Shown here: piece after piece, positions 4,200-64,000 of the stretch
Layout: every line of letters begins with the position of its first letter
How positions within the stretch are numbered: the first letter of the stretch is position 1
Origin: Alphaproteobacteria bacterium
GTDB lineage: Bacteria; Pseudomonadota; Alphaproteobacteria; Rhodobacterales; Rhodobacteraceae
DNA length: 64,000 bases
Direction of reading: 5' to 3'
NCBI GenBank assembly: GCA_030429495.1
Contig: JAUIFH010000010.1
Location: forward strand, 1 to 64,000
Notes under the pieces: generated by a model
The model's input: only the letters and a program-made list of their open reading frames with translations
Databases searched by the model: none
Told to the model about the DNA's origin: nothing
Position numbers and translations under genes: made by a program

Positions 4200-7009
4200 T
4201 CGCCGCGTGCCCGCTGCGCACCCTCGGTGATCGCCTGGCGCAGTTTTCGCTCAAGGCTGTCCTGCTTCGACTTCGTATGCAGCTTCAATCCGAACATGTC
4301 CTTGACATAGAAGGTGTCCACGACCTGGGCGCCGAAGGTCGCGATCACTGCGGAGGCGATGTAGATATTCGCGGCCGCCAGCGTCCGCGTCAGATCGTAG
4401 AGCAGACCGGGCCGGTCGCGGGTGTCGACCTCGACGATGGTGTAAATCTCGGAGCCGTCGTTGTCGAAGGTGATGTGGGTCGGGAACTGGAACTGGCGTT
4501 CGCGTTTCTTGATCTTGTCGCGATCCTTCAGCGCATCGCGAGTCACGACCTCGCCGCGCAGCGTCTTCTCGATCATCGACCGGAGCCGCGGCAGGCGGTC
4601 GGTCTCATAGGGATGGCCTTCGGAATCCTGCACCCAGAAGACGGCGGTCGCATAACCGTCCTTCGACGTATAGGTCCGCGCATCGACGACGTTGGCGCCG
4701 ACCAGCGCCAGCGCACCGGCGAGGCGGGAGAAGATGCCGGGGTGATCCTCAAGCGCGAAGCAGGCGCGCGTCGCGTCATGGTCCGGGTCGGGCTTGATGT
4801 CGATGCGCACCGCGTCGTTCGGGATGTCCTTCAGGAGATTTGCGAAGACGACATGCGTTTCGGTCGCGAGGCCTTGCCAATAGGGGCTGTAGTGGCGCGC
4901 GGACTCGCGGCGCAAATCCTTCGCGTCCCAGTTCGCTAGCCGCTCGCGTAGGGCGCGCTTGGCCTCGTCCTGGCGCTTGTCGCGGTTGACCGTTTCAAGG
5001 CCCGCTTCCAGCGCCTCGGCGGTTTCCGCGTAGAGGCGGCGGAGCAGCATGGCCTTCCAGTTGTTCCAGGTGTTCGGACCAACGCCCCGGATGTCGCAGA
5101 CCGTCAGCACCGTGAGAAGGTCGAGCCGCTTGCGCGTCTTCACGACCTTGGCGAAGTCGCGCACCGTCCTCGGGTCCGAGATATCGCGCTTCTGCGCCAT
5201 GTCGGACATGAAAAGGTGATAGCGGACGAGCCATTCCACCGTCTCGCTTTCCTCGGTATTCAGCCCCAGCCGGGGCGCGACCTTTCGTGCTATCTGGGCG
5301 CCAAGTATGGAATGATCCTCGGGCCGGCCCTTGCCGATATCGTGAAGCAGAAGCGCGACATAAAGCACGCGCCGGTTCACGCCGGCTTCGAGGATGGACG
5401 AGGAAAGCGGCAATTCCTCGATCAGTTCCTTGCGCTCGATCTGGGCGAGGGTAGAGATCGTCTGGATCGTGTGTTCGTCCACCGTGTAGTGGTGGTAGAC
5501 GTTGAACTGCATCATCGCGACGATGGGTTCGAATTCCGGGATAAAGGCCGACAGAACGCCAAGCTCGTTCATCCGGCGAAGGGCGCGTTCGGGGTTGCCA
5601 TGCTTCAGCAGCAGGTCGAGGAAGATCCGCGTCGCTTCGCGGTCTTCACGCATCTCGTCGTCGATCATGTCGAGATTGGCGGTGACAAGGCGCATCGCGT
5701 CGGGGTGGATCAGGTATCCGCTGCGCAGACCTTCCTCGAACAGGCGCAGGAGGTTGAGCTTGTCTTTCAGGAACGTCTTGGGGTCCGCTACATTGATGCG
5801 GCCACGGTCGATGCGGAACCCCTCACGCGTCTTCCGCCGGCGCCGCAACAGCCCGGCAAGCCGCGCCTCGCGCTTGGCGTGCCGTGCCTCCAGCGCGGTC
5901 AGGAATACGCGCGTCAGTTCGCCGACCCGCGTCGCGTGACGGAAGTAGTCCTGCATGAAATGCTCGACCGCCCGCCTCCCGCCGGTGTCTTGATATCCCA
6001 TCCGGCGCGCCACCTCGACCTGAAGGTCGAAGGTCAGCTGGTCCTGCGCGCGGCCGGTGATGAGATGCAGATGACAGCGAACGGCCCAGAGGAAATCCTC
6101 TGCTTCGGCGAAATTGTCGTATTCCTCGCGCCGCAGAAGGCCCTGGTCGACAAGCTCCGCCGATTGCCGCACATCGTGGATGTATTTGCCGATCCAGTAG
6201 AGGGTCTGCAGGTCGCGAAGACCGCCCTTGCCCTCCTTCACGTTCGGTTCCAGCACATAGCGCTGGCCGCCCTGACGCTTGTGGCGCTCGCTCCGTTCAG
6301 CCAGCTTCGCCTCGATGAACTCGCCGCCGGTATTCTTGAACAGATCGTTCCGCAGCTTGAGGCGAAGTTCGTTCGCCAGCGGCTGATGCCCGGTGATGAA
6401 CCGCCGTTCAAGAAGCGCCGTGCGGATCGTGTAATCCTCCCGCCCGAGGCGCAGGCAGTCCTTCACCGTGCGGCTGGAATGACCGACCTTCAGGCGCAGG
6501 TCCCACAGGATGTAGAGCATCGATTCGATGACGCTTTCGGCCCAGGCCGTCATCTTCCACGGGGTCAGGAACAAGAGGTCGACATCCGAGCTTGGCGCCA
6601 TCTCGGCGCGGCCATAGCCGCCTACGGCCAGCACCGCGATGCGCTCGCCCTCGGTCGGGTTGGCGCTTGGATGCAGCACTTCGCTTGTCAGTTGGAACGC
6701 AACCTGCACCGTCGCGTCGGTCAGCATCGCGTAAGCGCGGACCGTCACGGAGGCCGCGCGCGGATGGGTGGCGAAATCGTCCGCGATGGCGGCGAGGACC
6801 TCGCGCCGCGCGGCGACAAGAGCCTCGACGATTATGGCGCGCTGCGCGCGCGGCTCTCCAATATCCTTCAGGCGCGCCGCGAGAGCGCCGGAAAAAGCGG
6901 CGGTATCGAATACCGGGTGATCACCGATCAAGGCTGGCAGACCGGCCCCTGGCCGGGGTTCGGCGGGGTCAGAAACCCGCGCCGGCGAAGCTATTTGGGG
7001 CAGAATCAA
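4196..7009 (-). CDS. glnD: Bifunctional PII uridylyltransferase / uridylyl-removing enzyme
   Basis: A 937-residue nitrogen sensor that uridylylates PII proteins when glutamine is low and removes the UMP when glutamine is high. The nucleotidyltransferase motif GGYGR (130-134) followed by SDVDLLF is intact. The central HD domain shows HHYTVDEHTI and LLHDIGKG, which supply the metal ligands for deuridylylation. Two ACT domains close the protein (DHPGIFSRLAGALAL and DRPGLLYDLTRTLAA) and are expected to sense glutamine. The start overlaps the end of the upstream lipoprotein gene by about 40 bases. A start slightly downstream is possible. Confidence 0.97.
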   Translation of the reverse strand: MILPQIASPARVSDPAEPRPGAGLPALIGDHPVFDTAAFSGALAARLKDIGEPRAQRAIIVEALVAARREVLAAIADDFATHPRAASVTVRAYAMLTDATVQVAFQLTSEVLHPSANPTEGERIAVLAVGGYGRAEMAPSSDVDLLFLTPWKMTAWAESVIESMLYILWDLRLKVGHSSRTVKDCLRLGREDYTIRTALLERRFITGHQPLANELRLKLRNDLFKNTGGEFIEAKLAERSERHKRQGGQRYVLEPNVKEGKGGLRDLQTLYWIGKYIHDVRQSAELVDQGLLRREEYDNFAEAEDFLWAVRCHLHLITGRAQDQLTFDLQVEVARRMGYQDTGGRRAVEHFMQDYFRHATRVGELTRVFLTALEARHAKREARLAGLLRRRRKTREGFRIDRGRINVADPKTFLKDKLNLLRLFEEGLRSGYLIHPDAMRLVTANLDMIDDEMREDREATRIFLDLLLKHGNPERALRRMNELGVLSAFIPEFEPIVAMMQFNVYHHYTVDEHTIQTISTLAQIERKELIEELPLSSSILEAGVNRRVLYVALLLHDIGKGRPEDHSILGAQIARKVAPRLGLNTEESETVEWLVRYHLFMSDMAQKRDISDPRTVRDFAKVVKTRKRLDLLTVLTVCDIRGVGPNTWNNWKAMLLRRLYAETAEALEAGLETVNRDKRQDEAKRALRERLANWDAKDLRRESARHYSPYWQGLATETHVVFANLLKDIPNDAVRIDIKPDPDHDATRACFALEDHPGIFSRLAGALALVGANVVDARTYTSKDGYATAVFWVQDSEGHPYETDRLPRLRSMIEKTLRGEVVTRDALKDRDKIKKRERQFQFPTHITFDNDGSEIYTIVEVDTRDRPGLLYDLTRTLAAANIYIASAVIATFGAQVVDTFYVKDMFGLKLHTKSKQDSLERKLRQAITEGAQRARGE

Positions 7010-16863: not shown

Positions 16864-18894
16864 ATGACCAATCCGCTCTTGCAGCCCTGGACCGGAGTGT
16901 TCACGCTGCCGCCATTTTCCGCAATCAGCGACGCCGACTTCGCGCCCGCCTTTGATGCGGCCCTTGCCGATGCGCGGGCCAATGTTGCAGCCATTGCCGC
17001 TTCTGCCGATGCGCCGACCTTCGCGAACACGATCGAGGCGCTGGAACTTTCCGAAGAGGCGCTGAGCAGGGTCGCCGGGGTGTTCTACAACCTCGTCGGC
17101 GCGGATTCGACACCTGCGCGGGAGGCGCTGCAGCGCGACCTTGCCCCGAAGATGGCGGCCTTCTCATCGGAAGTGACGATGAACGCCGATCTGTTCGCGC
17201 GGATCGAGGCGCTTTGGTTAGGGGGCGATACTCTTGGCCTGACGGCGGAGCAGATGCGGGTGCTGGAGCTTTACCGCCGCATGTTCGTCCGCGCCGGCGC
17301 GGCGCTTGACGAAGCCGGACGGGCGCGGATGGTCGAGGTCAAGGAACGCCTGGCGGTCCTCTCGACCGCGTTCTCGCAGAACCTGCTGGCCGACGAGCGC
17401 GACTGGGCCATGCCGCTTGCGCCGGCGGATCTGGACGGGCTGCCCGATTTCGTGGTGGCGACAGCACGGGCCGCCGCAGAGGAGCGCGGGCAGGCGGACC
17501 ATGTGCTGACGCTCAACCGGTCGCTTATCGTGCCTTTCCTTCAGTTCTCGCCGCGCCGCGACCTGCGTGAGCGGGCTTTCGAGGCCTGGCTCGCGCGCGG
17601 GGCAAACGGTGGCGAGACCGACAACCGTGCGCTGGCGGCCGAGATCCTGAAACTCAGGGAAGAACGTGCAGCCCTTCTCGGCTATCAGAGTTTCGCAGCC
17701 TACAAGCTTGAACCGGAGATGGCCAAGACGCCGGGCCGTGTCCGCGATCTGTTGATGCGTATCTGGGAACCCGCCCGCGCGAAAGCCGAGGAAGACGCCG
17801 AGGTGCTGACGCAGATGATGCATGAGGACGGCGTCAACGGCGATCTGGAAGCCTGGGACTGGCGCTACTATTCTGAGAAGCGTCGGCTGGCGGAGCACAA
17901 TCTCGACGAGGGCGAGATCAAGTCCTATTTCAGCCTTGAGGCGATGATCGCAGCTGCCTTCGATTGTGCGAGCCGGCTTTTCGCGCTTGAGTTCCGGCCG
18001 CTCGACGTGCCGCTCTACCATCCCGACGTGCGCGCCTGGGAGGTCACGCGGGGCGGACAGCATATCGCGGTCTTCCTCGGCGACTACTTCGCGCGCGCCT
18101 CCAAACGGTCGGGCGCCTGGTGTTCGACGATGCGCGACCAGCGGAAGCTGGGCGGCGACCAGCGGCCGATCGTGGTCAACGTGTGCAACTTCGCTAAGCC
18201 GGCGGCGGGAGAACCCGCGCTGCTGTCCTGGGACGATGCGCATACGCTCTTTCACGAGTTCGGCCACGCCCTGCACCAGATGCTGTCGGATCTGACCTAC
18301 TCGTTCATTTCCGGCACATCCGTCGCGCGCGATTTCGTGGAACTGCCAAGCCAGCTTTTCGAACACTGGCTTGAAGTGCCCGAAGTGCTCGACAAGCACG
18401 CGCGCCACGCAAGGACCGGCGCGGCGATGCCGGCGGACCTGCGCGACCGGCTGCTTGCGGCGAAGACCTACGACCAGGGGTTCGGGACGGTGGAGTACCT
18501 GTCCTCTGCGCTGGTCGACCTTGCCTTCCACGAAGGCGCGGCGCCGGACGATGCGATGAAGGCGCAGAGCGAGGTGTTGGAGCAACTGGGAATGCCGCAT
18601 GCGATCCGGATGCGGCATGCGACACCACATTTCGCCCACGTCTTTTCCGGCGACGGCTATTCTTCGGGTTATTACAGCTACATGTGGTCCGAAGTCATGG
18701 ATGCCGATGCGTTCGAAGCCTTCTTGGAAGCAGGCGACCCGTTCGATCCCGCGACCGCGAAGCGACTGGAGCAGCACATCCTGTCGGCAGGCGGATCGGA
18801 GGAGGCGGACGTGCTTTACACCGCATTCCGCGGCCGGATGCCGGGAGTGGAGCCGCTTCTGAAAGGGCGCGGGCTTCTGGAACCGGCGGACTGA
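16864..18894 (+). CDS. M3-family zinc metallopeptidase (peptidyl-dipeptidase Dcp / oligopeptidase A type)
   Basis: A 676-residue thimet-oligopeptidase-family enzyme that degrades short peptides. The zinc motif HEFGH is at 464-468 (LFHEFGHALHQML), and downstream FVELPSQLFEHW supplies the third ligand Glu. FSGDGYSSGYYSYMWSEVMDADAF is the typical C-terminal substrate-pocket segment (split here as FSGDGYSSGYYSYMW and SEVMDADAF). No signal peptide, so cytoplasmic. The start has GAAGGAGA upstream; the longer ORF from 16708 runs through the repeat copy and is rejected. Dcp and OpdA cannot be separated by eye. Confidence 0.94.
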   Translation: MTNPLLQPWTGVFTLPPFSAISDADFAPAFDAALADARANVAAIAASADAPTFANTIEALELSEEALSRVAGVFYNLVGADSTPAREALQRDLAPKMAAFSSEVTMNADLFARIEALWLGGDTLGLTAEQMRVLELYRRMFVRAGAALDEAGRARMVEVKERLAVLSTAFSQNLLADERDWAMPLAPADLDGLPDFVVATARAAAEERGQADHVLTLNRSLIVPFLQFSPRRDLRERAFEAWLARGANGGETDNRALAAEILKLREERAALLGYQSFAAYKLEPEMAKTPGRVRDLLMRIWEPARAKAEEDAEVLTQMMHEDGVNGDLEAWDWRYYSEKRRLAEHNLDEGEIKSYFSLEAMIAAAFDCASRLFALEFRPLDVPLYHPDVRAWEVTRGGQHIAVFLGDYFARASKRSGAWCSTMRDQRKLGGDQRPIVVNVCNFAKPAAGEPALLSWDDAHTLFHEFGHALHQMLSDLTYSFISGTSVARDFVELPSQLFEHWLEVPEVLDKHARHARTGAAMPADLRDRLLAAKTYDQGFGTVEYLSSALVDLAFHEGAAPDDAMKAQSEVLEQLGMPHAIRMRHATPHFAHVFSGDGYSSGYYSYMWSEVMDADAFEAFLEAGDPFDPATAKRLEQHILSAGGSEEADVLYTAFRGRMPGVEPLLKGRGLLEPAD

Positions 18895-18920
18895 TCGCGG
18901 CGTGGCAAAAGGGGGCAGGG

Positions 18921-20000
18921 ATGGATGCCGATTTTCTGATCATCGGTGGCGGCATTGCCGGCGTATCGGCCGCGGCGCGGCTGTCGGAACTGGGTCGGGT
19001 CGTGCTGCTGGAGGCAGAGGATCACCTGGCGCATCACACGTCGGGCCGCTCCGCCGCGCTGTTCGAGCCGAACTACGGCCTTGCCCCTGTCGTTGCGCTG
19101 TCGCTCGCAAGCGAAGACCATTTGCGCCACGCGGACGGTGGCGTGCTCAGCCCGCGCGGGATCATGATCCTTGCCGGCGCGGGGGAGGATGCCGCTTTCC
19201 AAGCGGATTGCGCGGTGCTTGGCGTCGAGGAGATGACGGTGGCAGAGGCGCGGGCGATGGTCCCGATCCTCGATCCGGCGAAGCTTCGGGGCGCGGCCTT
19301 CGGCGATCATGCCTGGGATATCGACACCGACCGCCTGATCCAGAACTTTGCCCGGACGGCGCGGGAACGCGGTGGCCGGATCGTCACCCGCGCCCGCGTC
19401 ACGGCGCTTCACCGAATCGACGGCGGCTGGCGGGCAGAGACGGGTGGCGGAGATTATTCCGCGCGCATCCTTGTCAATGCGTCGGGTGCGTGGGCCGACG
19501 AGGTTGCGGGGATGGCGGGTATCGCACCGCTTGGTTTCACGCCGCTTCGCCGGTCGATGGCGCGCATCCCGGCGCCCGGTGGCCACGATCCGTCGGGCTG
19601 GCCGCTGATCATGGGCGCGGGTGAGACGTGGTATGCAAAGCCCGATGCCGGCGCGCTGATCGTCTCGCCGGCGGAAGAGGATCCGAGCTACCCGCATGAC
19701 GCTTGGGCTGACGATATGGTCCTTGCCGAGGGGATCGCGCGGTACGAGGCGATGGTGACGGAACCCGTTACGCGGCTTCTTGCGTCCTGGGCCGGACTCA
19801 GGACCTTCGCGCCGGACCTGGTGCTGGTGATCGGCCCCGATCCGGCGGAGCCGTCCTTCTTCTGGCTGGCGGGGCAGGGCGGTTACGGTTTCCAGACCTC
19901 GGCGGGCGCAAGCCGGCTGGCCGCCGATCTGATTGGGGGCCGAACGCCGGAGATTGATGCCGCGATTGTCACCGCCCTTTCCCCGAAGCGGTTTTCATGA
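18921..20000 (+). CDS. FAD-dependent oxidoreductase of the DAO (DadA / glycine oxidase) family
   Basis: A 359-residue protein starting directly with a Rossmann FAD motif ([17 protein letters not shown]). It has SGRSAALFEPNYG, the DIDTDRLIQNFARTARERGG strand-helix typical of DAO enzymes, and a C-terminal GQGGYGFQTSAGASRLAADL FAD closure. Such proteins oxidise amino acids or sarcosine-like amines. The exact substrate is not visible. It lies 26 bases after the M3 peptidase, so the two may be cotranscribed. The ORF's apparent extension to 18684 is antisense-like overlap and is rejected. Confidence 0.9.
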   Translation: MDADFLIIGGGIAGVSAAARLSELGRVVLLEAEDHLAHHTSGRSAALFEPNYGLAPVVALSLASEDHLRHADGGVLSPRGIMILAGAGEDAAFQADCAVLGVEEMTVAEARAMVPILDPAKLRGAAFGDHAWDIDTDRLIQNFARTARERGGRIVTRARVTALHRIDGGWRAETGGGDYSARILVNASGAWADEVAGMAGIAPLGFTPLRRSMARIPAPGGHDPSGWPLIMGAGETWYAKPDAGALIVSPAEEDPSYPHDAWADDMVLAEGIARYEAMVTEPVTRLLASWAGLRTFAPDLVLVIGPDPAEPSFFWLAGQGGYGFQTSAGASRLAADLIGGRTPEIDAAIVTALSPKRFS

Positions 20001-54498: not shown

Positions 54499-55632
54499 TC
54501 AATGCAGACCCTGAACGCCGGATGCAGCCGAAATCTGTACGCAGTCGGGGGTGATGTCGCCGAGTGTCCTGCAGCCAGACAGCGCCATGGTAACCTCCAG
54601 CTCATCCCGCAAAAGCCGGAGAACGTGGCTCACCCCGCGGGCTCCGGCTACGGCGAGGCCGTGGCAGACGGGTCGTCCGACGAGAACCGCGTCCGCACCC
54701 AACGCCAGTGCCCGGAACATGTCGACACCGCGCCGGATGCCGCTGTCCATGAGGACCGGAACCTCTCCATTAATGCGGTTGACCACACCGGGCAATGCGC
54801 TGATTGCCGTCTGCACGCCATCGATCACCCGCCCGCCGTGGTTCGACACGATGATCCCTGCCGCGCCGGCCTGAAGCGCCAGTCCGGCATCCTCGGGATG
54901 GAGGATGCCCTTGACCAACACGGGCAGCGGCGCGTCGGCGCAAAACCATGCGATGTCCTCCCAGAGTGGCAGAACATGGGCGATGCGGTCGAAGATCGCT
55001 GACTGACCCTCCCGCAGCGGGGCGAAACGCGGCTTGGGGAGGCCCGCCATATTGACGGCTGCGACCCCGTCGGGAAGCGCAAAGCCGGTCTCGACCTCGG
55101 CGTCGCGTATGCCGTTCACCGGGGCATCCACCGTCAGGACGAGTGCGCGAAATCCGGCCCTCGCCGCGCGTTCCGCCAGCGCGATCGTGCCGCTGCGGGA
55201 GGCCTGCCAGTAGATCTGCATCCAGCCGCAAGCCGCGCCCCTGTCGCGGACCTGTTCCATCGGCTGCGCAGCCTGCGCGCTCAGGACCATGCCGGCGCCC
55301 TGCGCTTCGGCCGCCGCAGCGACGCCCATCTCTCCATCGCGATGCAGAAGTGTTTGGTAGGCCATCGGCGCGACGAGGAGCGGTGCCGCCAGCACCTGGC
55401 CGAAAAGGGAAAGGCTGGTTCCCCCCTGCCGGAGATCGCGCAGGACGCGCGGCCGGATGAGGACCGCTCCAAGGTCGCGACGGTTCCGGCGAAGCGTTTC
55501 CTCGTGCCCGGCGCCTCCCAGGAAATAGGCGGCAATGTCTGGGGTGAGCCGTTGTTTGGCAGCCTCAGCATAGGCCGTCAGCGTTGCGGGCAGGCGGTAT
55601 CCATCGTCTTGTTGCGCGCGCTTCTGGGTCAC
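54499..55632 (-). CDS. FMN-dependent alpha-hydroxy-acid oxidase / dehydrogenase
   Basis: A 377-residue protein of the lactate/glycolate oxidase family (LldD-like). FMN-binding and catalytic segments are present: APMAYQTLLHRDGE, CGWMQIYWQASRSGT (with the catalytic Tyr), LVLTVDAPVNGIRD, VKGILHPEDAGLAL (Lys), VSNHGGRVIDG (catalytic His and Arg) and DSGIRRGVD. The substrate is likely a short alpha-hydroxy acid; lactate, glycolate and mandelate cannot be told apart here. It overlaps hemP by 4 bases, an unusual partnership. Confidence 0.9.
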   Translation of the reverse strand: MTQKRAQQDDGYRLPATLTAYAEAAKQRLTPDIAAYFLGGAGHEETLRRNRRDLGAVLIRPRVLRDLRQGGTSLSLFGQVLAAPLLVAPMAYQTLLHRDGEMGVAAAAEAQGAGMVLSAQAAQPMEQVRDRGAACGWMQIYWQASRSGTIALAERAARAGFRALVLTVDAPVNGIRDAEVETGFALPDGVAAVNMAGLPKPRFAPLREGQSAIFDRIAHVLPLWEDIAWFCADAPLPVLVKGILHPEDAGLALQAGAAGIIVSNHGGRVIDGVQTAISALPGVVNRINGEVPVLMDSGIRRGVDMFRALALGADAVLVGRPVCHGLAVAGARGVSHVLRLLRDELEVTMALSGCRTLGDITPDCVQISAASGVQGLH

Positions 55633-56132: not shown

Positions 56133-57683
56133 TCAGGAAGCGCCCGGGCCGGCAGCGCCACCGTCAGGCAGGACAGGGTCGTTTATCCCAACCATATCTC
56201 CGCCGTCCCGGGCTACCCCGGACGGGCAGGCGTAGAGCTTCGGCATCACGACACTGCCCGAAATTTCCAGCGTGTGGTGGCGCGCCAGAGCGTCCAGAAC
56301 GTCCGCCCCAAAACGCGGGTCGGCACGCAGGCTGCCGCGATGCGACGCGTCCAGCCTGGGCGAATGGAACGCCGCCTCCAACGAAATGTCGAAATCGAGC
56401 ATGAGCGCCGCGATTTGGGATACGCAAGGCATGATAAGGTCCACGCCCGAGGCACCGACGGCGAAAACGGCCTGCCCGTCCCGGACTGCGACGGTCGGTA
56501 CCATGTTGGACGAATTGATCCGCTTGCCGCCCGCCATGGAGGTGCGCAGGCCGGGGCGTGGGTCGAAATAGCTGACGCCATTATTCAGCGCTAGGCCGGT
56601 TTCCGGCAACGTGATCCCTGCGCCGAAATGGTCAAGCAACGTGTAGGTCAGGGCGACCATGTTGCCCTCGGCGTCGGCCGCCGACAGCGAGGAGGTCGAA
56701 CTGCCGACCTCGGCAAGGGTGCCGTTGCGTTCGCGATGCGCGCGCCATGCAACCTCCAGCGCGTCGGCATAGATGCACCAGGTCGCGGCATCCGGGGCCT
56801 TCGGCGGAACCGGCAGCATTTCGGCAATATGGGCCAGGAAGTCGCGCTGCCGAAGACCGCCACTCTGCTCACCCGGCGTGTAAAGGGTTGTACCGCGATG
56901 CTGTGCCTCCATCGGGTTGTATTCCTGCACATCGTAGGCGGCCAGATCCTCCATGGTCATGCGGTTGCCCTGCGCCTGCAACTCACACACCAGATCGCGG
57001 CCGAGATCGCCGTGATAGAAGCCTTCGGCGCCGGTTTCGGCCAGGCGACGCATAGTTCGGGCGAGCTCCGGAATCTTCAGCGGCGCGCCCGGCTGCAACG
57101 GGACACCGTCCGGCAGGTAGATCGAAGCGGCGGTCGCATCCTTGGCCAGGATCGCCATCTCGGACGCGATCATCAGCGTGCAGAACCAGCTTGCCGGGAT
57201 GCCGGTTTCCGCGAGTTGGATCGCAGGTTGCAGCGCGTCGGAGAGGCTCTTGCGGCCGAACCGGCGCAGGGCATGGTCAAATCCCGCCACCGCGCCGGGG
57301 ACGGTGACGGCGCGCGCGCCCTGGGTGTTGGCGAAGTTCGCGACCGCCGGGAAGCCCATCGACGTTACAGGAAGGCTTGCGTCGATCGGATAGTCATCCG
57401 CTGTCAGGGCCTTGGGCAGGACGCCCTGGAAATCGAGGGCAACCGCACGTCTCTCGGCAGCAAGCCAGACGACCATGAAGCCACTACCGCCAATGCCACA
57501 CATCCAGGGCTCGACCGCGCCAAGGGCGAGTGCCGCAGCGACGGCTGCGTCGACGGCATTTCCCCCCTGCGCCAGCAACGCGGCCCCGGCCTCGGCGGCC
57601 CTGATGTGTTGGGCCGCGACCATGCCGCCCGTGCTGCGAACCGGCCGTTTCGCTGTCGACCATTGATCTGCCGCTGTCGCCAT
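56133..57683 (-). CDS. Gamma-glutamyltransferase-fold Ntn hydrolase with altered substrate pocket
   Basis: A 516-residue protein of the Ggt family; no signal peptide is apparent. The catalytic Thr and its neighbourhood align as GSSTSSLSAADAEGNMVALT (E. coli TTHYSVVDKDGNAVAVT), and the SSNMVPT segment keeps the paired serines. The E. coli Arg114 position (DFREMAP) reads DFQGVLP, the Asp433 position reads Tyr (NNGVSYF), and the second oxyanion glycine (PGGS) reads SGVD. It is probably an autoprocessing amidase/acylase for a non-glutamyl substrate. Divergent from gntR and likely controlled by the shared palindrome. Confidence 0.88.
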   Translation of the reverse strand: MATAADQWSTAKRPVRSTGGMVAAQHIRAAEAGAALLAQGGNAVDAAVAAALALGAVEPWMCGIGGSGFMVVWLAAERRAVALDFQGVLPKALTADDYPIDASLPVTSMGFPAVANFANTQGARAVTVPGAVAGFDHALRRFGRKSLSDALQPAIQLAETGIPASWFCTLMIASEMAILAKDATAASIYLPDGVPLQPGAPLKIPELARTMRRLAETGAEGFYHGDLGRDLVCELQAQGNRMTMEDLAAYDVQEYNPMEAQHRGTTLYTPGEQSGGLRQRDFLAHIAEMLPVPPKAPDAATWCIYADALEVAWRAHRERNGTLAEVGSSTSSLSAADAEGNMVALTYTLLDHFGAGITLPETGLALNNGVSYFDPRPGLRTSMAGGKRINSSNMVPTVAVRDGQAVFAVGASGVDLIMPCVSQIAALMLDFDISLEAAFHSPRLDASHRGSLRADPRFGADVLDALARHHTLEISGSVVMPKLYACPSGVARDGGDMVGINDPVLPDGGAAGPGAS

Positions 57684-57722
57684 TTCCTTGCCCTTTCACG
57701 AATCGCTTGCCTGACGGTGCTT

Positions 57723-57750
57723 GCTCAGTATATTTCATAATATATTGAGC
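57723..57750. promoter_or_regulatory. 28-bp palindromic operator between ggt-like and gntR
   Basis: Arms GCTCAGTATATT and AATATATTGAGC match at 11 of 12 positions around a TCAT centre. It sits in the 86-base divergent gap, 19 bases before the gntR ATG and 39 before the ggt-like start. It is the most extended palindrome in the window and an obvious binding site for the adjacent GntR protein, which would then control both directions. Confidence 0.75.
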
Positions 57751-57769
57751 CACGCAAAGGGCCATCCGA

Positions 57770-58435
57770 ATGAGCAAGCGCAAGAGCGACGAGGCCTATG
57801 GCGAGCTACGTCGGCGGATCATGCTGGCGGAGCTGCCGCCCAACAGCCTTCTCGACGAGAAAACGCTGCTGGCGTCACTCGACTGTGGCCGCACGCCCCT
57901 GCGTGAAGCGATCCTGAGGCTCGCGCAGGAAGGTCTGGTGACGTCGATGGGGCGGCGCGGCTATGCGGTTGCCGGTGCGACACCCGAAGATCTTCAGCGC
58001 GGCTACGAACTCCGCCGGGAAATGGAGTGCTTCATCGCGGGCCTCGCCGCCGAGCGCCGCACGCCCGAAGACATGGAGCGCCTTGATGCCTTCCTTGCCA
58101 AGGTCCAGTCAGAGATGGAGTCGTCCGAGGGCGACGTCACTTGGGAGCTGGCCATTGACGAGGAGTTTCACGGCCTGGTCGCCCGGGCTTCGGGCAACAA
58201 ATTCGCCCAGCGATATCTCGCCTCGCTCTATGGCCTGTCGGTGCGCAGCCTTTACGTCTCGCAAGTGCCGATCACCTTCGTCCGCGAAGAGCTCGATACC
58301 TATCGCCAACTGATTGACGCCATCCGCATGTATGATGCCGCAGCCGCGCGCGCCGCGATGGCAGCACATCTGACCGTCAGCCCGATCAAGGCGATTGCCC
58401 AGAAGGGGCTGCGGGGCAAGGCCAAGGTGTCGTGA
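57770..58435 (+). CDS. GntR-family (FCD) transcriptional regulator
   Basis: A 221-residue repressor or activator. The N-terminal winged helix is seen in SDEAYGELRRRIMLAELPPN and CGRTPLREAILRLAQEGLV. The C-terminal FCD effector domain (LRREMECFIAGLAAE, EFHGLVARASGNKFAQRYLASL, IDAIRMYDAAAARAAMAAHL) usually binds a carboxylate or amino-acid-like ligand through a metal. It starts the transporter operon and is divergent from the ggt-like gene. Confidence 0.93.
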   Translation: MSKRKSDEAYGELRRRIMLAELPPNSLLDEKTLLASLDCGRTPLREAILRLAQEGLVTSMGRRGYAVAGATPEDLQRGYELRREMECFIAGLAAERRTPEDMERLDAFLAKVQSEMESSEGDVTWELAIDEEFHGLVARASGNKFAQRYLASLYGLSVRSLYVSQVPITFVREELDTYRQLIDAIRMYDAAAARAAMAAHLTVSPIKAIAQKGLRGKAKVS

Positions 58436-59292
58436 TGCGCAGAGAGCGACGCGAGCAGCTTCAGACAGGCTTGATGCTGACCCCTTCGGTGCTTTTGCTG
58501 GCGCTGTTCATCCTGCTGCCACTTTGTGTAGTGTTCGCCTACAGCTTCGCCTTGCGCGACCCCTACGGGGCGGTGCTGCCGGGCTTCACGCTCGACAACT
58601 ACAAGGAGCTGGTGCAGGGCGTCTACCTGCGGGTCCTGATGAATTCGTTTTCGCTGGCGGGAATGACGACGGTTCTGTGCCTTCTGATCGGCTATCCCGT
58701 CGCGTATTTCATAGCATTCAAGGCCGGGCGCGCGGCGCCTGCGCTGCTGCTGCTGTTGCTGATCCCTTTCTGGATCAACTTCCTCATCCGGATTTCGGCT
58801 TGGGTGGTGCTCCTGGGGCGCGGTGGCCTGATCAACAAGGGGCTGGTCTTCTCGGGCCTGATTGACGAGCCGATCGGGATGCTGGGCACGGTTGCGGCGA
58901 CGCTTGTCGGCATGGTCTATGCCTTTCTGCCGGTGACCGTTTTCCCAATCTATGCCGCGCTTACTCCGATCGACCGCAGACTGATGGAGGCTGGCGCCGA
59001 TCTGGGCGCGGGTCCCGCAGAGACCTTCTGGCGCATTACCCTCCCGCTTTCCCTGCCGGGTGTGCTGGCGGCGGCGCTGTTCGTTTTCGTTCCATCAATG
59101 GGGGTCTTCGCGATTCCGGTGCTTCTGGGTGGCGGCAAGGACATCATCCTCGGCAATCTCATCGTTCAGCTGTTCCTTGAGTTTCGGAACATTCCGGTCG
59201 GCGCGGCCGTGTCGATCCTTCTGCTCGTCGTCTCGGGCTTCGGAATCCTGCTCTACATGCGCGCCCTCCGGCGGGTGGAGGCCATGAAATGA
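58435..59292 (+). CDS. Spermidine/putrescine-type ABC importer permease 1
   Basis: A 285-residue PotB-like inner-membrane permease with six predicted helices. The cytoplasmic coupling loop reads EAGADLGAGPAETFWRITLPLSLPG (quoted in part as EAGADLGAGPAETFWRITL), the EAA motif that touches the ATPase. Start codons GTG (58432) and ATG (58435) both overlap the gntR stop, so expression is coupled. It pairs with the next permease by a 4-base overlap. Confidence 0.93.
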   Translation: MRRERREQLQTGLMLTPSVLLLALFILLPLCVVFAYSFALRDPYGAVLPGFTLDNYKELVQGVYLRVLMNSFSLAGMTTVLCLLIGYPVAYFIAFKAGRAAPALLLLLLIPFWINFLIRISAWVVLLGRGGLINKGLVFSGLIDEPIGMLGTVAATLVGMVYAFLPVTVFPIYAALTPIDRRLMEAGADLGAGPAETFWRITLPLSLPGVLAAALFVFVPSMGVFAIPVLLGGGKDIILGNLIVQLFLEFRNIPVGAAVSILLLVVSGFGILLYMRALRRVEAMK

Positions 59293-60116
59293 GTGCGAAC
59301 GGAAAGGCGCCCAACTGGTTCGTCCGCCACGTCGTTTACGGCGCCGCGGGCTGGATTACGCTGCTGACGTATTTGTTCATGCTTCTTCCCATCGTGGTTC
59401 TGATCGCCTTCGCCTTCAATGCGGGCAAGTCGACCGTCGTCTGGACCGGCTTCTCGTTCAAATGGTTCGAGAAGGTGATCAGCAACCGGAACATCATCGA
59501 CGCGCTTGAGGTCAGCCTGATTGTCGCGGTGGCCAGTGCTGCGATTTCGACAGCCATCGGTGCGGTTGCGGCAGTTGCGATCACACGCCGTTCCTTTCCC
59601 GGGCGCGATGCCCTGGGCGCAGCCCTCGCCGCGCCGCTGGTGCTGCCCGAGATCGTTTTGGGCGTGGCGCTCCTGGTGTTCATGTCCTTTGTCGGAATGA
59701 CGCTGGGCTATACGACCATGATCATTGGGCATGTCCTGGTCTCGATCCCCTTCGCGACGCTGATTGTCCGGGCAGCCGCCTCGTCCCTCGATCCCAGATT
59801 GGAGAATGCCGCGGCCGATCTCGGCGCGAACGAGTGGCAGACGTTCCGCATGGTGACGCTTCCACAGCTGATGCCGGCGATCTTTACGTCCTTCATCCTG
59901 TCTGCGACGCTGTCGTTCGACAATCTGGTCATGTCCACCTTCACCTCGGGCGTCGGCACCACCACCCTGCCGCTGCGCATCTATTCGATGCTGAAGCTGG
60001 GCATTACCCCCGAAATCAACGCCCTCGGCGCGCTGATGGTCCTGGCCAACGTCACGATCCTTCTGTTGGTCATGGGCCGCTACCTTCCTTTGATCCTGAA
60101 GACTAACCGGCGCTGA
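59289..60116 (+). CDS. Spermidine/putrescine-type ABC importer permease 2
   Basis: A 275-residue PotC-like permease with six helices. The EAA loop is ENAAADLGANEWQTFRMVTLP. The N-terminal FVRHVVYGAAGWITLLTYLF and VWTGFSFKWFEKVI segments are characteristic of PotC proteins. Overlap with the previous permease (ATGA) indicates a stoichiometric pair. Confidence 0.93.
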   Translation: MSANGKAPNWFVRHVVYGAAGWITLLTYLFMLLPIVVLIAFAFNAGKSTVVWTGFSFKWFEKVISNRNIIDALEVSLIVAVASAAISTAIGAVAAVAITRRSFPGRDALGAALAAPLVLPEIVLGVALLVFMSFVGMTLGYTTMIIGHVLVSIPFATLIVRAAASSLDPRLENAAADLGANEWQTFRMVTLPQLMPAIFTSFILSATLSFDNLVMSTFTSGVGTTTLPLRIYSMLKLGITPEINALGALMVLANVTILLLVMGRYLPLILKTNRR

Positions 60117-60154
60117 ACGGCCGGACCCATCCAACTTCCAACTAGGAGACCGTC

Positions 60155-61189
60155 ATGAAAAACCGATTTTCCCTTGGCCTTGCCACCTCTACGCTGGCGC
60201 TATTGGTGGCCCTGCCCGCTCTTGCCGAAAATCTGCTCATCTACGGCTGGGCAGGTGAGATGCCGGACGAAGTGCTGGCCGATTTCGAACAGGAAACCGG
60301 CATTGATGTCACGTTCGACACGTTCGACAGCAATGAATCGATGATTGCCAAGCTGGATGCCGGCGGGTCCGGTTACGATCTGGTGAACCCGTCCCAATAC
60401 GCGGTTCAGATCCTGATCAACCGCGGGAAACTGGCCGAGCTGGATCACTCGAAGATCGAAACCTACGGCAAGATCGGCCCTACGTTCCGGGAAGTGTCCT
60501 ACGACCCCGGCAACCGGTATTCGATCCCCTATGTCTGGGGCACCACCGGGTTGGCCTACAACAAGAGCTGCGTTGATGAGCCGATTACCAGCTGGAAGTC
60601 CCTTTTTGACGAGAAGTACAAGGGCCGCATCTACATGCTCGACAACATGCTGGCGGCCTACATTGCCGGCCTGCAGGTCAATGGTTTCAGCGCCAACACC
60701 TCGGACCCCGCCGAAATCGAGAAGGCGACCGAAACGCTGATCGCGCAGAAGCCTCTGCTTGCGGGCTACAACAGCACGAACTTTGCCGACCTGGTGTCCT
60801 CCGGCGAGGCCTGCATCGTCGAGAGCTGGTCGTCTTCGGTGCTGCAGGCGATCGCCGACAACCCCGATGTCGTCTACGTCCTGCCCGAAGAAGGTGGCAC
60901 GATGTGGATCGACGGCTACAGCATCCTCTCGGATGCGCCGAACCCCGACGCGGCCTACAAGTTCCTGTCTTACATCCTCCGCCCCGAGGTCGCGGCCAAG
61001 ACGACCGATCTGACGAAGACGGCGACCGTGGTGCCGGAGTCCAAGGCTCTGCTTCCCACGGAGATCGGTGAAAACCCTGCCGTTTTCCCGGATGAGGCGA
61101 CCATCGCGAATGCGGACTTCATCCTCGATCTCGGCGACGCGATGAAGTTCTACCAGGATGGCTGGACCAAGGTCAAAGCCGCTCCGTAA
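60155..61189 (+). CDS. PotD/PotF-like ABC substrate-binding protein
   Basis: A 344-residue periplasmic protein with a signal peptide (ATSTLALLVALPALAE). The polyamine-binding-protein fold is clear: NLLIYGWAGEMPDEVLADFEQ, GSGYDLVNPSQYAV and MWIDGYSIL, which keeps the Trp-x-Asp pair of PotD. The position of PotD Glu171, which grips spermidine, appears to be Ala (LDNMLAAYIAGL). The first aromatic motif WTEY reads WAGE. A ligand other than spermidine is possible. A GC hairpin after the stop may favour its mRNA over the ATPase. Confidence 0.9.
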   Translation: MKNRFSLGLATSTLALLVALPALAENLLIYGWAGEMPDEVLADFEQETGIDVTFDTFDSNESMIAKLDAGGSGYDLVNPSQYAVQILINRGKLAELDHSKIETYGKIGPTFREVSYDPGNRYSIPYVWGTTGLAYNKSCVDEPITSWKSLFDEKYKGRIYMLDNMLAAYIAGLQVNGFSANTSDPAEIEKATETLIAQKPLLAGYNSTNFADLVSSGEACIVESWSSSVLQAIADNPDVVYVLPEEGGTMWIDGYSILSDAPNPDAAYKFLSYILRPEVAAKTTDLTKTATVVPESKALLPTEIGENPAVFPDEATIANADFILDLGDAMKFYQDGWTKVKAAP

Positions 61190-61203
61190 TCGACGCAAGT
61201 TCT

Positions 61204-61232
61204 GGCGCGCGGGGTATCCGCCCTCGCGCGCC
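61204..61232 (+). promoter_or_regulatory. Intercistronic hairpin between binding protein and ATPase
   Basis: GGCGCGCG and CGCGCGCC give an 8-bp stem with a partly pairing interior (GGG/CCC). It lies between the substrate-binding-protein stop and the ATPase start, a common place for structures that raise the binding-protein level relative to downstream genes. Confidence 0.45.
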
Positions 61233-61256
61233 GTCCTACCTACAAGCAGGCAATAC

Positions 61257-62351
61257 ATGTCCACCACCATCAAATATCCGTCCCCTTCGAAGGCTGTTGT
61301 CGAGCTCAGGGGGGTAGAGAAGCGCTTTGCCGCCTTCACGGCGTTGCGCCGTATGGACCTGACCATTCGGGAGGGGGAGTTCTTCACCCTGCTTGGCCCC
61401 TCGGGATGTGGAAAGACGACCACCTTGCGCCTGATTGCCGGGTTCGAGCTGCCCAGCGAAGGGCAGATCATGATTGCCGGGCAGGATGTGTCGAACGTGC
61501 CGACGCATTTGCGGCCTGTGCATACCGTATTCCAGAACTACGCGCTGTTCCCGCATATGACGGTGCTCGATAATGTGGCTTTTCCACTGACGGTGCGCCG
61601 CATCACGAAGGCCGAGCGGTTGGAGCGCGCGCGCGCCGCGCTGGATCTTGTGCAGATGGACGCCTTCGGCGACCGCAAGCCATCGCAGCTCTCGGGCGGA
61701 CAACAGCAGCGCGTGGCCCTTGCCCGGGCGCTTGTCAACGAACCGCAGGTCCTGCTGCTGGACGAACCTCTGGGGGCCCTGGATCTGAAGCTGCGCAAGG
61801 AAATGCAGGCCGAATTGAAGGCCATGCAGCGCCGACTGGGCATCACCTTCGTCTTCGTGACGCACGATCAGGAAGAAGCGCTCTCCATGTCGGATCGCAT
61901 CGCCCTGATGAAAGGCGGCGAGATCGTTCAGCTTGATACGCCAACCGGTCTCTACGACCGGCCGGCGAATGCCTATGTCGCGGACTTTATTGGCGAAACC
62001 AACATGATCCCGGCGCGGGTCGTTTCCTGCGACGCCGATGCCACCCTGGTGGAGGCGATGGGAACCCGTCTACGCGTGTCGGGTTACCACGGTCAGGCGG
62101 CGGGGGCCGAGGTGCAGATGGCGATCCGGCCGGAACGGGTGAGCGACGAGATAGCTGAGCCTTCGAACTGCGCCGAAGGCGTGCTCGCCGATATCGAATT
62201 CATCGGAACCGATCTGCGCATGGCCTATCGGATGACCGACGGTAGCCGCGTCGTGATGCGGCGGCAGAACAGCGGGCGCGCCGCTCCTCAACTAGGCGAA
62301 ACCCGGCGGCTGGGCTTCCGGCAACAGGACCTGCGGCTTTTCAGCCGCTGA
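61257..62351 (+). CDS. Spermidine/putrescine-type ABC importer ATPase
   Basis: A 364-residue PotA-like ATPase. It has Walker A LLGPSGCGKTTTLRLIAGFE, Q-loop FQNYALFPHMT, signature LSGGQQQRVALARALVNEPQ, Walker B VLLLDEPLGALDLKLR and H-loop VFVTHDQEEAL. A C-terminal TOBE-like regulatory domain (ADFIGETNMIPARVVS ... RPERVSDEI) follows. The ATG at 61257 is the first that begins a proper N-terminus; an upstream in-frame extension overlaps the binding-protein gene. It energises the two permeases above. Confidence 0.95.
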   Translation: MSTTIKYPSPSKAVVELRGVEKRFAAFTALRRMDLTIREGEFFTLLGPSGCGKTTTLRLIAGFELPSEGQIMIAGQDVSNVPTHLRPVHTVFQNYALFPHMTVLDNVAFPLTVRRITKAERLERARAALDLVQMDAFGDRKPSQLSGGQQQRVALARALVNEPQVLLLDEPLGALDLKLRKEMQAELKAMQRRLGITFVFVTHDQEEALSMSDRIALMKGGEIVQLDTPTGLYDRPANAYVADFIGETNMIPARVVSCDADATLVEAMGTRLRVSGYHGQAAGAEVQMAIRPERVSDEIAEPSNCAEGVLADIEFIGTDLRMAYRMTDGSRVVMRRQNSGRAAPQLGETRRLGFRQQDLRLFSR

Positions 62352-62368
62352 CAGGACAAGGACAAGTA

Positions 62369-63055
62369 ATGACCGACATCTACCGCCTTGAAGCGCTGCC
62401 GCCGCAGCTCGACGCCGAGACGGCCGTCAAACTGGCCCGGGTCGAGGCCGCGACGCTTGGCCACTATCTGCACACGGGATTCGTGGATACAGCGATCCGC
62501 CCGATGATCGTGGGGCCAAGAGTCGCGGGGGCTGCGGTCACGGTGCAGATATCCGGCCCGGATTCCACCCTGCTTTACCACGCCATGGACCGCGTGCGGC
62601 CCGGCGACATGCTGGTCATTGACCGGGCCGGCGATCACAAGCAGGCCTGCTGGGGCGGCTTCATGGCGGCGCTGGCGCGCATTCGGGGCCTCGCCGGCGT
62701 GATCATCGACGGCGCCGTTACCGACCCCTCCGCGATCCGCGAGGCCGGAGTACCCACCTGGGCGCGTGACACTTCGGCGGTGACGACCAAGCTTCTGAAC
62801 CTTGGGGGCGGTTTCAACGTGCCGGTCTCGATCGGCGGCGTGGCCGTCAATCCCGGCGATGCCGTTCTGGCCGACGACTGCGGCGTCGTCGTGATCGAAC
62901 CCGGGCGCCTGTCCAAGCTGATCGAGGTTGCCCTAGCCGATCAGGCCGAGGAGGGCGACTGGATCGCAAGGCTGCAGAAGGGCGAGATGCTGCAAGACCT
63001 CATCGACATCCGCGGGATGCTGGAGAAGAACGGAATGGAGGGAACCGGTGTCTGA
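62369..63055 (+). CDS. RraA-family aldolase-like protein with altered catalytic Arg
   Basis: A 228-residue protein of the RraA / HMG-CHA aldolase family. The family motif, normally DG-x-V-R-D, reads DGAVTD (GVIIDGAVTDPSAIREAGV), so the metal-binding Asp stays but the substrate Arg is Thr. ACWGGFMAALARIRGLAG supplies the rest of the site. Members act as 4-hydroxy-4-methyl-2-oxoglutarate or 4-carboxy-4-hydroxy-2-oxoadipate aldolases and oxaloacetate decarboxylases; others bind RNase E. The changed Arg leaves the activity uncertain. It follows the ABC operon by 17 bases. Confidence 0.88.
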   Translation: MTDIYRLEALPPQLDAETAVKLARVEAATLGHYLHTGFVDTAIRPMIVGPRVAGAAVTVQISGPDSTLLYHAMDRVRPGDMLVIDRAGDHKQACWGGFMAALARIRGLAGVIIDGAVTDPSAIREAGVPTWARDTSAVTTKLLNLGGGFNVPVSIGGVAVNPGDAVLADDCGVVVIEPGRLSKLIEVALADQAEEGDWIARLQKGEMLQDLIDIRGMLEKNGMEGTGV

Positions 63056-63770
63056 TATGCCTTCCGAAAACGCGGTCTGGCTGTCGACACCGCACCATCA
63101 ACTGGTGGAAATCGCCACGTCGCTCGGATGCCGGCGCTTCGTGCTGGACATCGAGCATGGCTATTTCGATCTGGATGGCACCGACAAGCTCATCGCGCTG
63201 ATCCGGGCGCTCGGGGCGAAGGTCTATGCCAAGGTGTTGGGGCCTGAGACCGTTCCGATCCAGCAGGCACTGGACATGGGGTGCCACGGGGTGATCATTC
63301 CCCATATCGGTGATGCCGGGCACGCCCACCGTGTCACCGCTGCGGCGAAATATCCGCCGAACGGCCTGCGCAGCTTCTCGGGCACGCGCCCGGCGCGGTA
63401 TGACGCGGCGGGGCAGGACTACTATGCCCGCGAAGACGCCGAAACGCTTTGCCTGCCGATGATCGAAAGCGCCGAGGCGCTGGCCGACGTCGAGGCGATC
63501 CTGGCCCTTCCGACGGTGGACGGCCTGTTCGTCGGCCCGTCCGACCTATCCCTGTCGCGTGGGCGCGGGGCATACGCCAAGACCGAGGCCGACTTCGACG
63601 ACCTGCGCCGTATCGCCGCCGCTGCAAAGGCCGCCGGCAAGCCGTGGATCATGCCCGCGTGGTCGCAGGCGGAACGCGATCTTTCGCGGTCGCTCGGTTC
63701 GGCCTGGCAGGTGACGGTCGATGAGTATGGCGCGCTCTGGACCGGCATCGAAGCCGGGCTTCGGGCCTGA
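63048..63770 (+). CDS. HpcH/HpaI-family class II aldolase
   Basis: A 240-residue TIM-barrel aldolase. It has LDIEHGYFDLD (catalytic His), then AKVLGPETVPIQQALDMGCHGVIIP, KYPPNGLRSFSGTRP, PMIESAEALADVEAIL (metal Glu) and VDGLFVGPSDLSLSRG (metal Asp). The Arg that binds the pyruvate carboxylate in HpaI aligns with Lys here (in YAKVLGP). Family enzymes cleave 4-hydroxy-2-oxo acids to pyruvate and an aldehyde. The GTG start overlaps the preceding stop; an ATG three codons in is also possible. Confidence 0.9.
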   Translation: MSDMPSENAVWLSTPHHQLVEIATSLGCRRFVLDIEHGYFDLDGTDKLIALIRALGAKVYAKVLGPETVPIQQALDMGCHGVIIPHIGDAGHAHRVTAAAKYPPNGLRSFSGTRPARYDAAGQDYYAREDAETLCLPMIESAEALADVEAILALPTVDGLFVGPSDLSLSRGRGAYAKTEADFDDLRRIAAAAKAAGKPWIMPAWSQAERDLSRSLGSAWQVTVDEYGALWTGIEAGLRA

Positions 63771-63780
63771 GGAGGGAACA

Positions 63781-64000
63781 TGTCGATCGCCGTCTATCTG
63801 GGGGATGCCGAGGAAACCCGTGAGTGGGTCGAGCTTCTTTCCGGTCTGTTGCCCGAGTTCGAAATTCGTGATCTCGACGATCCGGGAGACGTGGCGGCGG
63901 TGGAATACGCCGTCGTCTGGGCTCCGCCTGCTGGCAGGATCGCGCGCTTTCCGAACTTGAAGGCCGTGGTCTCGATCGGGGCCGGGGTCGATCATGTCCT
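63781..64000 (+). CDS. GhrA-like D-2-hydroxyacid dehydrogenase (partial, runs off the window)
   Basis: Only the first 73 residues are in view. MSIAVYLGDAEETREWVELL and PNLKAVVSIGAGVDHVL are the start of the substrate domain and the GAGVDH motif of D-2-hydroxyacid dehydrogenases of the glyoxylate/hydroxypyruvate reductase A type. It starts 10 bases after the aldolase with GGAGGG as ribosome-binding site, so it belongs to the same operon. It could reduce the aldehyde or 2-oxo acid made by the aldolase; this is inference. Confidence 0.8.

Follow-up and report, generated by a model that had tools for sequence, protein, structure and literature searches.

Analysis of a 64,000-nucleotide stretch of contig JAUIFH010000010.1 (assembly GCA_030429495.1, positions 1 to 64,000; hereafter the window), from an alphaproteobacterium of the family Rhodobacteraceae, revealed an operon that, judged from its sequence, probably serves to import and degrade a small amide or lactam compound under the control of a GntR-family regulator, a reading to which a probability of about 0.6 is assigned. 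The operon combines an ABC importer with two predicted metal-dependent lyases, one of RraA/HMG-aldolase fold with Thr in place of the catalytic Arg, and one of HpcH/HpaI fold with Lys in place of the pyruvate Arg; a hydrolase related to gamma-glutamyltranspeptidase (GGT) is encoded divergently. The novelty of the locus lies in the two linked lyase groups and not in the GGT-like enzyme: both the Thr-type RraA group and the Lys-type HpaI group occur repeatedly beside C-N hydrolases. The genes, families and short or overlapping spacings listed in a preliminary description of the window were borne out by the reading frames and by Pfam and NCBIfam profile searches, as follows.

56133..57683, minus strand: GGT-like Ntn hydrolase of 516 amino acids, divergent from the operon (Pfam PF01019, 320.6 bits)
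57729..57744, no strand: perfect palindrome TATATT-TCAT-AATATA in the GGT/GntR gap, putative GntR operator
57770..58435, plus strand: GntR-family regulator with FCD domain, first gene of the operon (PF00392, PF07729)
58432..59292, plus strand: PotB-like ABC importer permease (NF007044, 243.9 bits, below the cutoff of 348)
59289..60116, plus strand: PotC-like ABC importer permease (NF007047, 228.4 bits, below the cutoff of 326)
60155..61189, plus strand: PotD-like substrate-binding protein (SBP) with changed amine-site signature (NF007048, 223.3 bits, below the cutoff of 582)
61257..62351, plus strand: PotA-like ABC ATPase (TIGR01187, 381.2 bits, above the cutoff of 355.6); 61257 is the likely Met start, in an open frame beginning at 61158
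62369..63055, plus strand: RraA/HMG-aldolase-fold lyase, Thr type (T118; PF03737; 3NOJ is the best sequence and fold match)
63048..63770, plus strand: HpcH/HpaI-fold lyase, Lys type (K62; PF03328; best fold match SwHKA, 7nnk)
63780..64000, continuing to contig position 64712, plus strand: GhrA-like D-2-hydroxyacid dehydrogenase (PF02826; NF012013, 223.5 bits)
64712-66112, beyond the window and next after the GhrA-like gene: GlcD-like FAD oxidase

The operon thus runs in the order GntR, permease, permease, SBP, ATPase, RraA, HpaI, and is extended past the window by the GhrA-like and GlcD-like genes. Residue equivalences in the two lyases, the GGT-like protein and the SBP were taken from HMMER alignments to solved structures, and these confirmed the missing residues named in the preliminary description (T118 in RraA, K62 in HpaI, Q86 and Y372 in the GGT-like protein, A167 in the SBP). 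Since the changes in RraA, HpaI and the GGT-like protein recur in orthologues, they are not due to chance. The accompanying statement that all enzymes of the cluster deviate is overstated, as the GGT deviation is common to a wider group (see below) and no deviation was named for the GhrA-like protein. The latter scores below its NCBIfam equivalog cutoff (223.5 against 403 bits), and its Arg, Glu and His are, by motif, presumably in place.

The RraA-fold protein resembles the HMG/CHA aldolase of P. putida (3NOJ; LigK/PcmE/RraA fold) in fold, in the metal ligand D119 (3NOJ D124) and in T140 (3NOJ T145), but T118 is aligned at R123, so that Thr stands in place of the enolate-stabilising Arg. Its predicted model (mean pLDDT 93.7) has 3NOJ as the best solved match with a TM score of 0.88, while the NCBIfam score falls below the HMG/CHA aldolase cutoff (121.6 against 304.5). 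According to the consulted part of PMC5065237, the P. putida R123A variant has activity below detection and R123K lowers kcat 181-fold, which lends weight to the exchange of Arg for Thr. Both D119 and R86 are invariant across a 26-row RraA alignment. In a 40-row table drawn from the loci of the HpaI scan described below (40), five plasmid loci (three holding the set) and the window, Thr occupies the Arg site in 38 rows, the other two being LigK-like paralogues with Arg. In the residue tables for RraA, GGT and SBP, and HpaI the window fills two rows, once under its own name and once as locus L007, and the members of near-identical pairs (for example L001/L024 and L002/L028) are not independent samples; loci L006, L008, L016, L100 and L061-L086 were omitted from the set behind the GGT and SBP tables, the wider HpaI table and the RraA tree. 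No second RraA homologue was found in the genome at E <= 0.001.

To place the Thr-type protein within its family, RraA matches at E <= 1e-12 were collected from 117 of 198 family genomes, with a drop in score between rank 21 (138 bits) and rank 22 (112 bits). The window and L016, at ranks 1 and 2, were set aside, and the loci at ranks 3-21 (19 loci) were compared with those at ranks 22-41 (20 loci) over stretches of about 8 kb on each side of RraA; in both groups contig ends truncate some of the stretches. Thr occupies position 118 in 18 of the 19 higher-ranking loci (Cys in L145), and all 20 lower-ranking ones have Arg. A C-N or amide hydrolase lies nearby at 15/19 Thr-group loci compared with 0/20 Arg-type loci (Fisher test, 1.5e-7), and at 11/15 against 0/20 (3.3e-6) when L054, L087, L088 and L099, which had been fetched earlier for GGT or HpaI, are omitted. 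The hydrolase panel comprised CN hydrolase, GGT, creatininase, N-formylglutamate amidohydrolase and beta-lactamase-fold hydrolase, and the controls were scored identically. A GhrA-like gene of at least 48% identity accompanies six of the 19 Thr-group loci and none of the 20 Arg-type loci (p = 0.008); the counts become 7/19 and 3/20 when weak matches (27-32%) are added.

The same division appeared in a quick tree of 78 RraA rows calculated without column 118. The 21 Arg rows form one side of a branch (SH-aLRT 98), and the other side holds the 56 rows with Thr and the single row with Cys, with L029 (Thr, on a long branch) nearest to the Arg rows. The tree is unrooted, and L007, L010, L030, L040, L042, L043, L044, L046 and L101 were omitted from it. 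One record in the tree, L038, is titled Bacillus subtilis SK6B4, and its RraA is placed next to those of Brucella; this probably reflects contamination or a wrong label.

The HpaI-fold protein likewise retains the machinery of its fold. Its predicted model (mean pLDDT 89.9) best matches SwHKA, the Sphingomonas hydroxyketoacid aldolase (7nnk, TM score 0.87), and it shares with the HpaI/SwHKA/GarL class II pyruvate aldolases the catalytic His (H37) and the metal-site Glu and Asp (E140 and D166). It differs from them in K62, which is aligned at an Arg of SwHKA that is taken to be R70 in E. coli numbering, and its NCBIfam scores lie far below the cutoffs (80-91 against 369-441 bits). The role of Arg70, in the portion of PMC8560999 consulted, comprises specificity, C-C cleavage and enolate stabilisation. 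Lys is found at this site in 50 of the 56 rows of the wider HpaI table, with Arg in five and a gap in one; four of the Arg rows are 31-35% identical to the window protein and the fifth is the HpcH-type paralogue of L001. At E <= 1e-30 HpaI was found in 4 of 198 family genomes, including that of the window, two of the four being at 47% identity. The distribution of the operon within the family is sporadic.

A single scan of a collection of species genomes with the HpaI alignment yielded 40 loci, and a search for the gene set in other genomes recovered it in full at 8 of 11 rhodobacterial loci and its core at 14 rhizobial and other loci. The set is therefore not confined to this genome. In the rhodobacterial arrangement (layout A), the eight full loci have a divergent GGT followed by GntR, the two permeases, SBP, ATPase, RraA, HpaI and GhrA; among the incomplete ones, L010 and L012 are truncated where their contigs end, and in L032 the genes between GntR and HpaI are missing. 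GhrA follows HpaI in 11/11 loci, GlcD is present in 7/11, and GGT in 9/9 where the contigs reach. Layout B keeps the gene order at 14 loci, with a thiamine diphosphate (ThDP) enzyme of the PRK07524 family for GhrA and without GGT; its hosts are Shinella, Rhizobium, Sinorhizobium, Mycoplana, Mesorhizobium, Ciceribacter, Pseudomonas sp. CAN1 and a Rhodospirillaceae isolate, and a weak (25-28%) beta-lactamase-fold match occurs at four of these loci. Layout C is represented by two Aestuariivirga-like loci and layout D by 11 loci, in which HpaI, CN hydrolase and RraA follow one another behind a different ABC importer, and at five further loci HpaI is accompanied by CN hydrolase and other genes. Of the 24 loci that belong to neither layout A nor layout B (18 from the scan and six from plasmids or family genomes; the HpaI of L047 is broken), 23 encode a CN hydrolase within 4.2 kb of HpaI, the exception being L051. 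RraA, GGT and GhrA also stand beside TRAP importers at L087 (with GlcD) and L088, and RraA-GGT pairs occur in dipeptide-importer operons. The association of the enzymes thus does not depend on the kind of importer. Searches of open-licence PubMed Central listed no paper on this combination of genes, although one listed paper on lignin degradation (PMC12673573) contains the term 'RraA family protein', and no plasmid record had a single place covering 80% of the query DNA.

Some of these loci have peculiarities of their own. In Defluviimonas SB22 (L032, 2745-6555) GntR is followed directly by a partial HpaI, and both permeases, SBP, ATPase and RraA are missing, through deletion or misassembly. 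The Pseudorhodobacter layout A locus (L012) has in addition an opposite-strand ThDP enzyme at 3051-4862, 46% identical to that of layout B. In Shinella (L001 and L024) the opposite strand beside layout B encodes a TcuA-like dehydrogenase, an NAD(P) oxidoreductase and Arg-type HpcH- and LigK-type aldolases; this TcuA-containing cluster was found at two loci only and was of no help.

The GGT-like protein belongs to the same Pfam family as bacterial gamma-glutamyltranspeptidases and retains the Thr nucleophile (T330), which is Thr in 27/27 rows of a wider GGT-like set. It differs from them in lacking, at the aligned columns, equivalents of R114 and D433 of the E. coli enzyme (EcGGT), where Q86 and Y372 are found; only one Ser of the Ser-Ser pair is matched in the alignment, and the score of 277.1 is below the NCBIfam g_glut_trans equivalog cutoff of 357.85. 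None of the 27 rows, which come from many contexts, has R or D at these columns, so the deviation marks a wider GGT-like group; an Arg two residues further on is present in 9/27 rows, none of them from layout A. In the excerpts of PMC8062742 consulted, EcGGT R114L and R114D are inactive, and D433N has lost transpeptidation and gained cephalosporin-acylase activity. GGT was detected in 23 of 198 family genomes at E <= 1e-60, and the genome contains no second GGT homologue at E <= 0.001.

The importer resembles PotABCD in its four genes, in the PotA-type score of its ATPase and in the W/D part of the amine site, whereas the permeases and the SBP fall short of the PotB, PotC and PotD cutoffs and the SBP lacks equivalents of PotD D168 and E171, where N164 and A167 are aligned. 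W225, W251 and D253 are retained. With the amine contacts of PotD taken to include the acidic D168, E171 and D257, D253 is the only acidic contact kept. The motifs LDNML(A/S)AY, MW(I/V)D and YQDGW are present in 30/31 SBP rows, Ti-plasmid ones included, the odd row being the second SBP of L031 (33% identical). Including the window SBP, ten PotD-like proteins are encoded in the genome (E <= 0.001).

The gap between the GGT-like and GntR genes is 86 bp long and holds the palindrome. TATA...TATA-type sites line up across the window and the nine layout A loci examined, and nine of the ten layout B loci examined have a AAATATAT-type site upstream of GntR. The palindrome is probably the GntR operator, and these conserved sites at the GGT-GntR gap and upstream of GntR make joint control of GGT and the operon likely.

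Taken together, these features suggest the following route. The palindrome would serve as a GntR operator in both directions, and the SBP and permeases would import the compound. The GGT-like enzyme would process itself and hydrolyse an amide bond other than a gamma-glutamyl one. Interconversion of the hydroxy or oxo acid thus freed would fall to the GhrA-like and GlcD-like enzymes, and its cleavage to the metal lyases of RraA and HpaI fold. The altered residue on the enolate side may reflect a carbonyl donor or acceptor unlike that of the pyruvate aldolases. The proposal that importer, amidase, lyases and reductase form one catabolic unit is favoured by synteny, by the conserved GGT/GntR site and by recurrence. 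The further claim of the preliminary description, a substrate that none of the parent families predicts, is left unproven: the Lys of HpaI is a conservative change, and the GGT loss is group-wide and not decisive in published mutants.

Several observations weigh against the amide-degradation reading. Neither GGT nor CN hydrolase is found near the lyases at the 14 layout B loci, and 4 of the 19 Thr-group loci showed none of the amide hydrolases in the panel. Since neighbouring loci had already been seen when the panel was drawn up, it is biased toward families already found there, and some of the counted hydrolase matches are weak (30-36% identity). A Lys-type HpaI is absent from several loci with a Thr-type RraA, and L087, L142 and L146 have an Arg-type one; the exchange of Arg for Lys in HpaI is itself conservative. 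In the passages of PMC8062742 consulted, BlGGT R109S retains 85% activity and Ser occupies the same place in extremophile GGTs, so gamma-glutamyl substrates would be compatible with loss of the Arg alone. The palindrome pattern, at no more than one mismatch, occurs at one place in the 3.83-Mb genome, but a backward-read control pattern occurs at two, and a single site is thus attainable by chance; the weight of the palindrome comes from its place and conservation.

The lyases could still be ordinary aldolases, the K62 and T118 variants cleaving 4-hydroxy-2-oxo acids to pyruvate with another residue, such as R86 of RraA, substituting for the lost Arg. The retained folds and metal ligands, the invariance of R86 and the ability of Lys to replace Arg as a cation speak for this possibility, yet the kinetic cost of R123K in the P. 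putida enzyme counts against it, and the retention of Thr and Lys across divergent layouts suggests that these residues have another role; the possibility is regarded as somewhat doubtful. Held equally tentatively is the idea that the Thr-type RraA and Lys-type HpaI groups are two lyase subfamilies of unrelated fold, both re-tooled at the enolate-stabilising residue for a route that would begin with amide or lactam hydrolysis and release a carbonyl compound other than pyruvate on cleavage, and which could be the missing route for pantothenate- or opine-like amides. It is very improbable that the RraA-fold protein is instead a regulator of the RNase E inhibitor type: E. coli-type RraA proteins do have the same fold, but the HMG/CHA aldolase 3NOJ is closest by both sequence and fold, the metal ligand D119 is invariant in the 26 rows, and RraA is located in catabolic operons.

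As to the substrate, there are two leads, neither strong. One is an opine-like compound: the importer would take up a rideopine-type amine-carboxylate conjugate, either N-(4'-aminobutyl)-glutamate or its lactam, whose acid half the enzymes would degrade. Orthologues on pTiS4 and pTiQ15/94 share 59-65% identity with the SBP and permeases, and the SBP keeps one amine site (W251, D253) with D168/E171 lost. In the sections of PMC8554961 and PMC10410297 consulted, the pTiS4 region is hypothesised to serve rideopine catabolism, and rideopine forms a lactam. The annotated genes around the pTiS4 SBP fit the published description, a match by gene annotation and not by coordinates. The lead is nevertheless unlikely to be correct: the pTiS4 region holds several ABC importers, which makes rideopine's own importer ambiguous, the 35 kb of pTiS4 read contain no RraA, HpaI or GhrA, and the Ti-plasmid SBPs differ at the SQY/TQN motif. 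Less likely again is a pantothenate-type compound, for which the GGT or CN hydrolase would act as pantothenase, GhrA and GlcD would oxidise D-pantoate, and the lyases would split ketopantoate to 2-oxoisovalerate and formaldehyde. Such a scheme would suit the combination of amidase, D-2-hydroxyacid dehydrogenase, metal lyase and the ThDP enzyme of layout B. It would also accommodate the class III aminotransferase encoded at some loci, and in the part of PMC10393543 consulted the protein behind pantothenase activity was, as of 2023, described as unidentified. The chemistry of the scheme is reasoned from enzyme types, however, and no sequence feature singles out pantoate.

Other features of the region concern the surroundings of the operon. 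The window has no Rfam matches. An FMN-dependent alpha-hydroxyacid dehydrogenase (54499-55632), beyond the GGT-like gene, was excluded from the system, the panel having labelled none elsewhere; the Shinella loci L001 and L024 have a different hydroxyacid oxidase nearby. About 2 kb past the operon, at 17990-19558 and 17288-17905 of L007, a look-alike of MttB-type methyltransferases and an XRE/cupin-type regulator were recognised by eye. Short frames at L007 16562-17107 and L008 7440-8006 share, also by eye, a common sequence stretch and are possibly mobile-element remnants. Downstream on the contig of L008 (9457-14841; contig C19, about 79457-84841) is a Gly-Asp-rich repeat protein of about 1800 amino acids, which by eye resembles calcium-binding RTX repeats.

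Public records name some members of the two lyase groups '4-hydroxy-4-methyl-2-oxoglutarate aldolase' or '4-hydroxy-2-oxovalerate aldolase', although the RraA and HpaI group proteins so named lack the Arg needed for the characterised aldolase activity. One residue together with the gene neighbourhood would set the Thr-type and Lys-type groups apart from true pyruvate aldolases, and the operon provides a compact gene set for finding a substrate.

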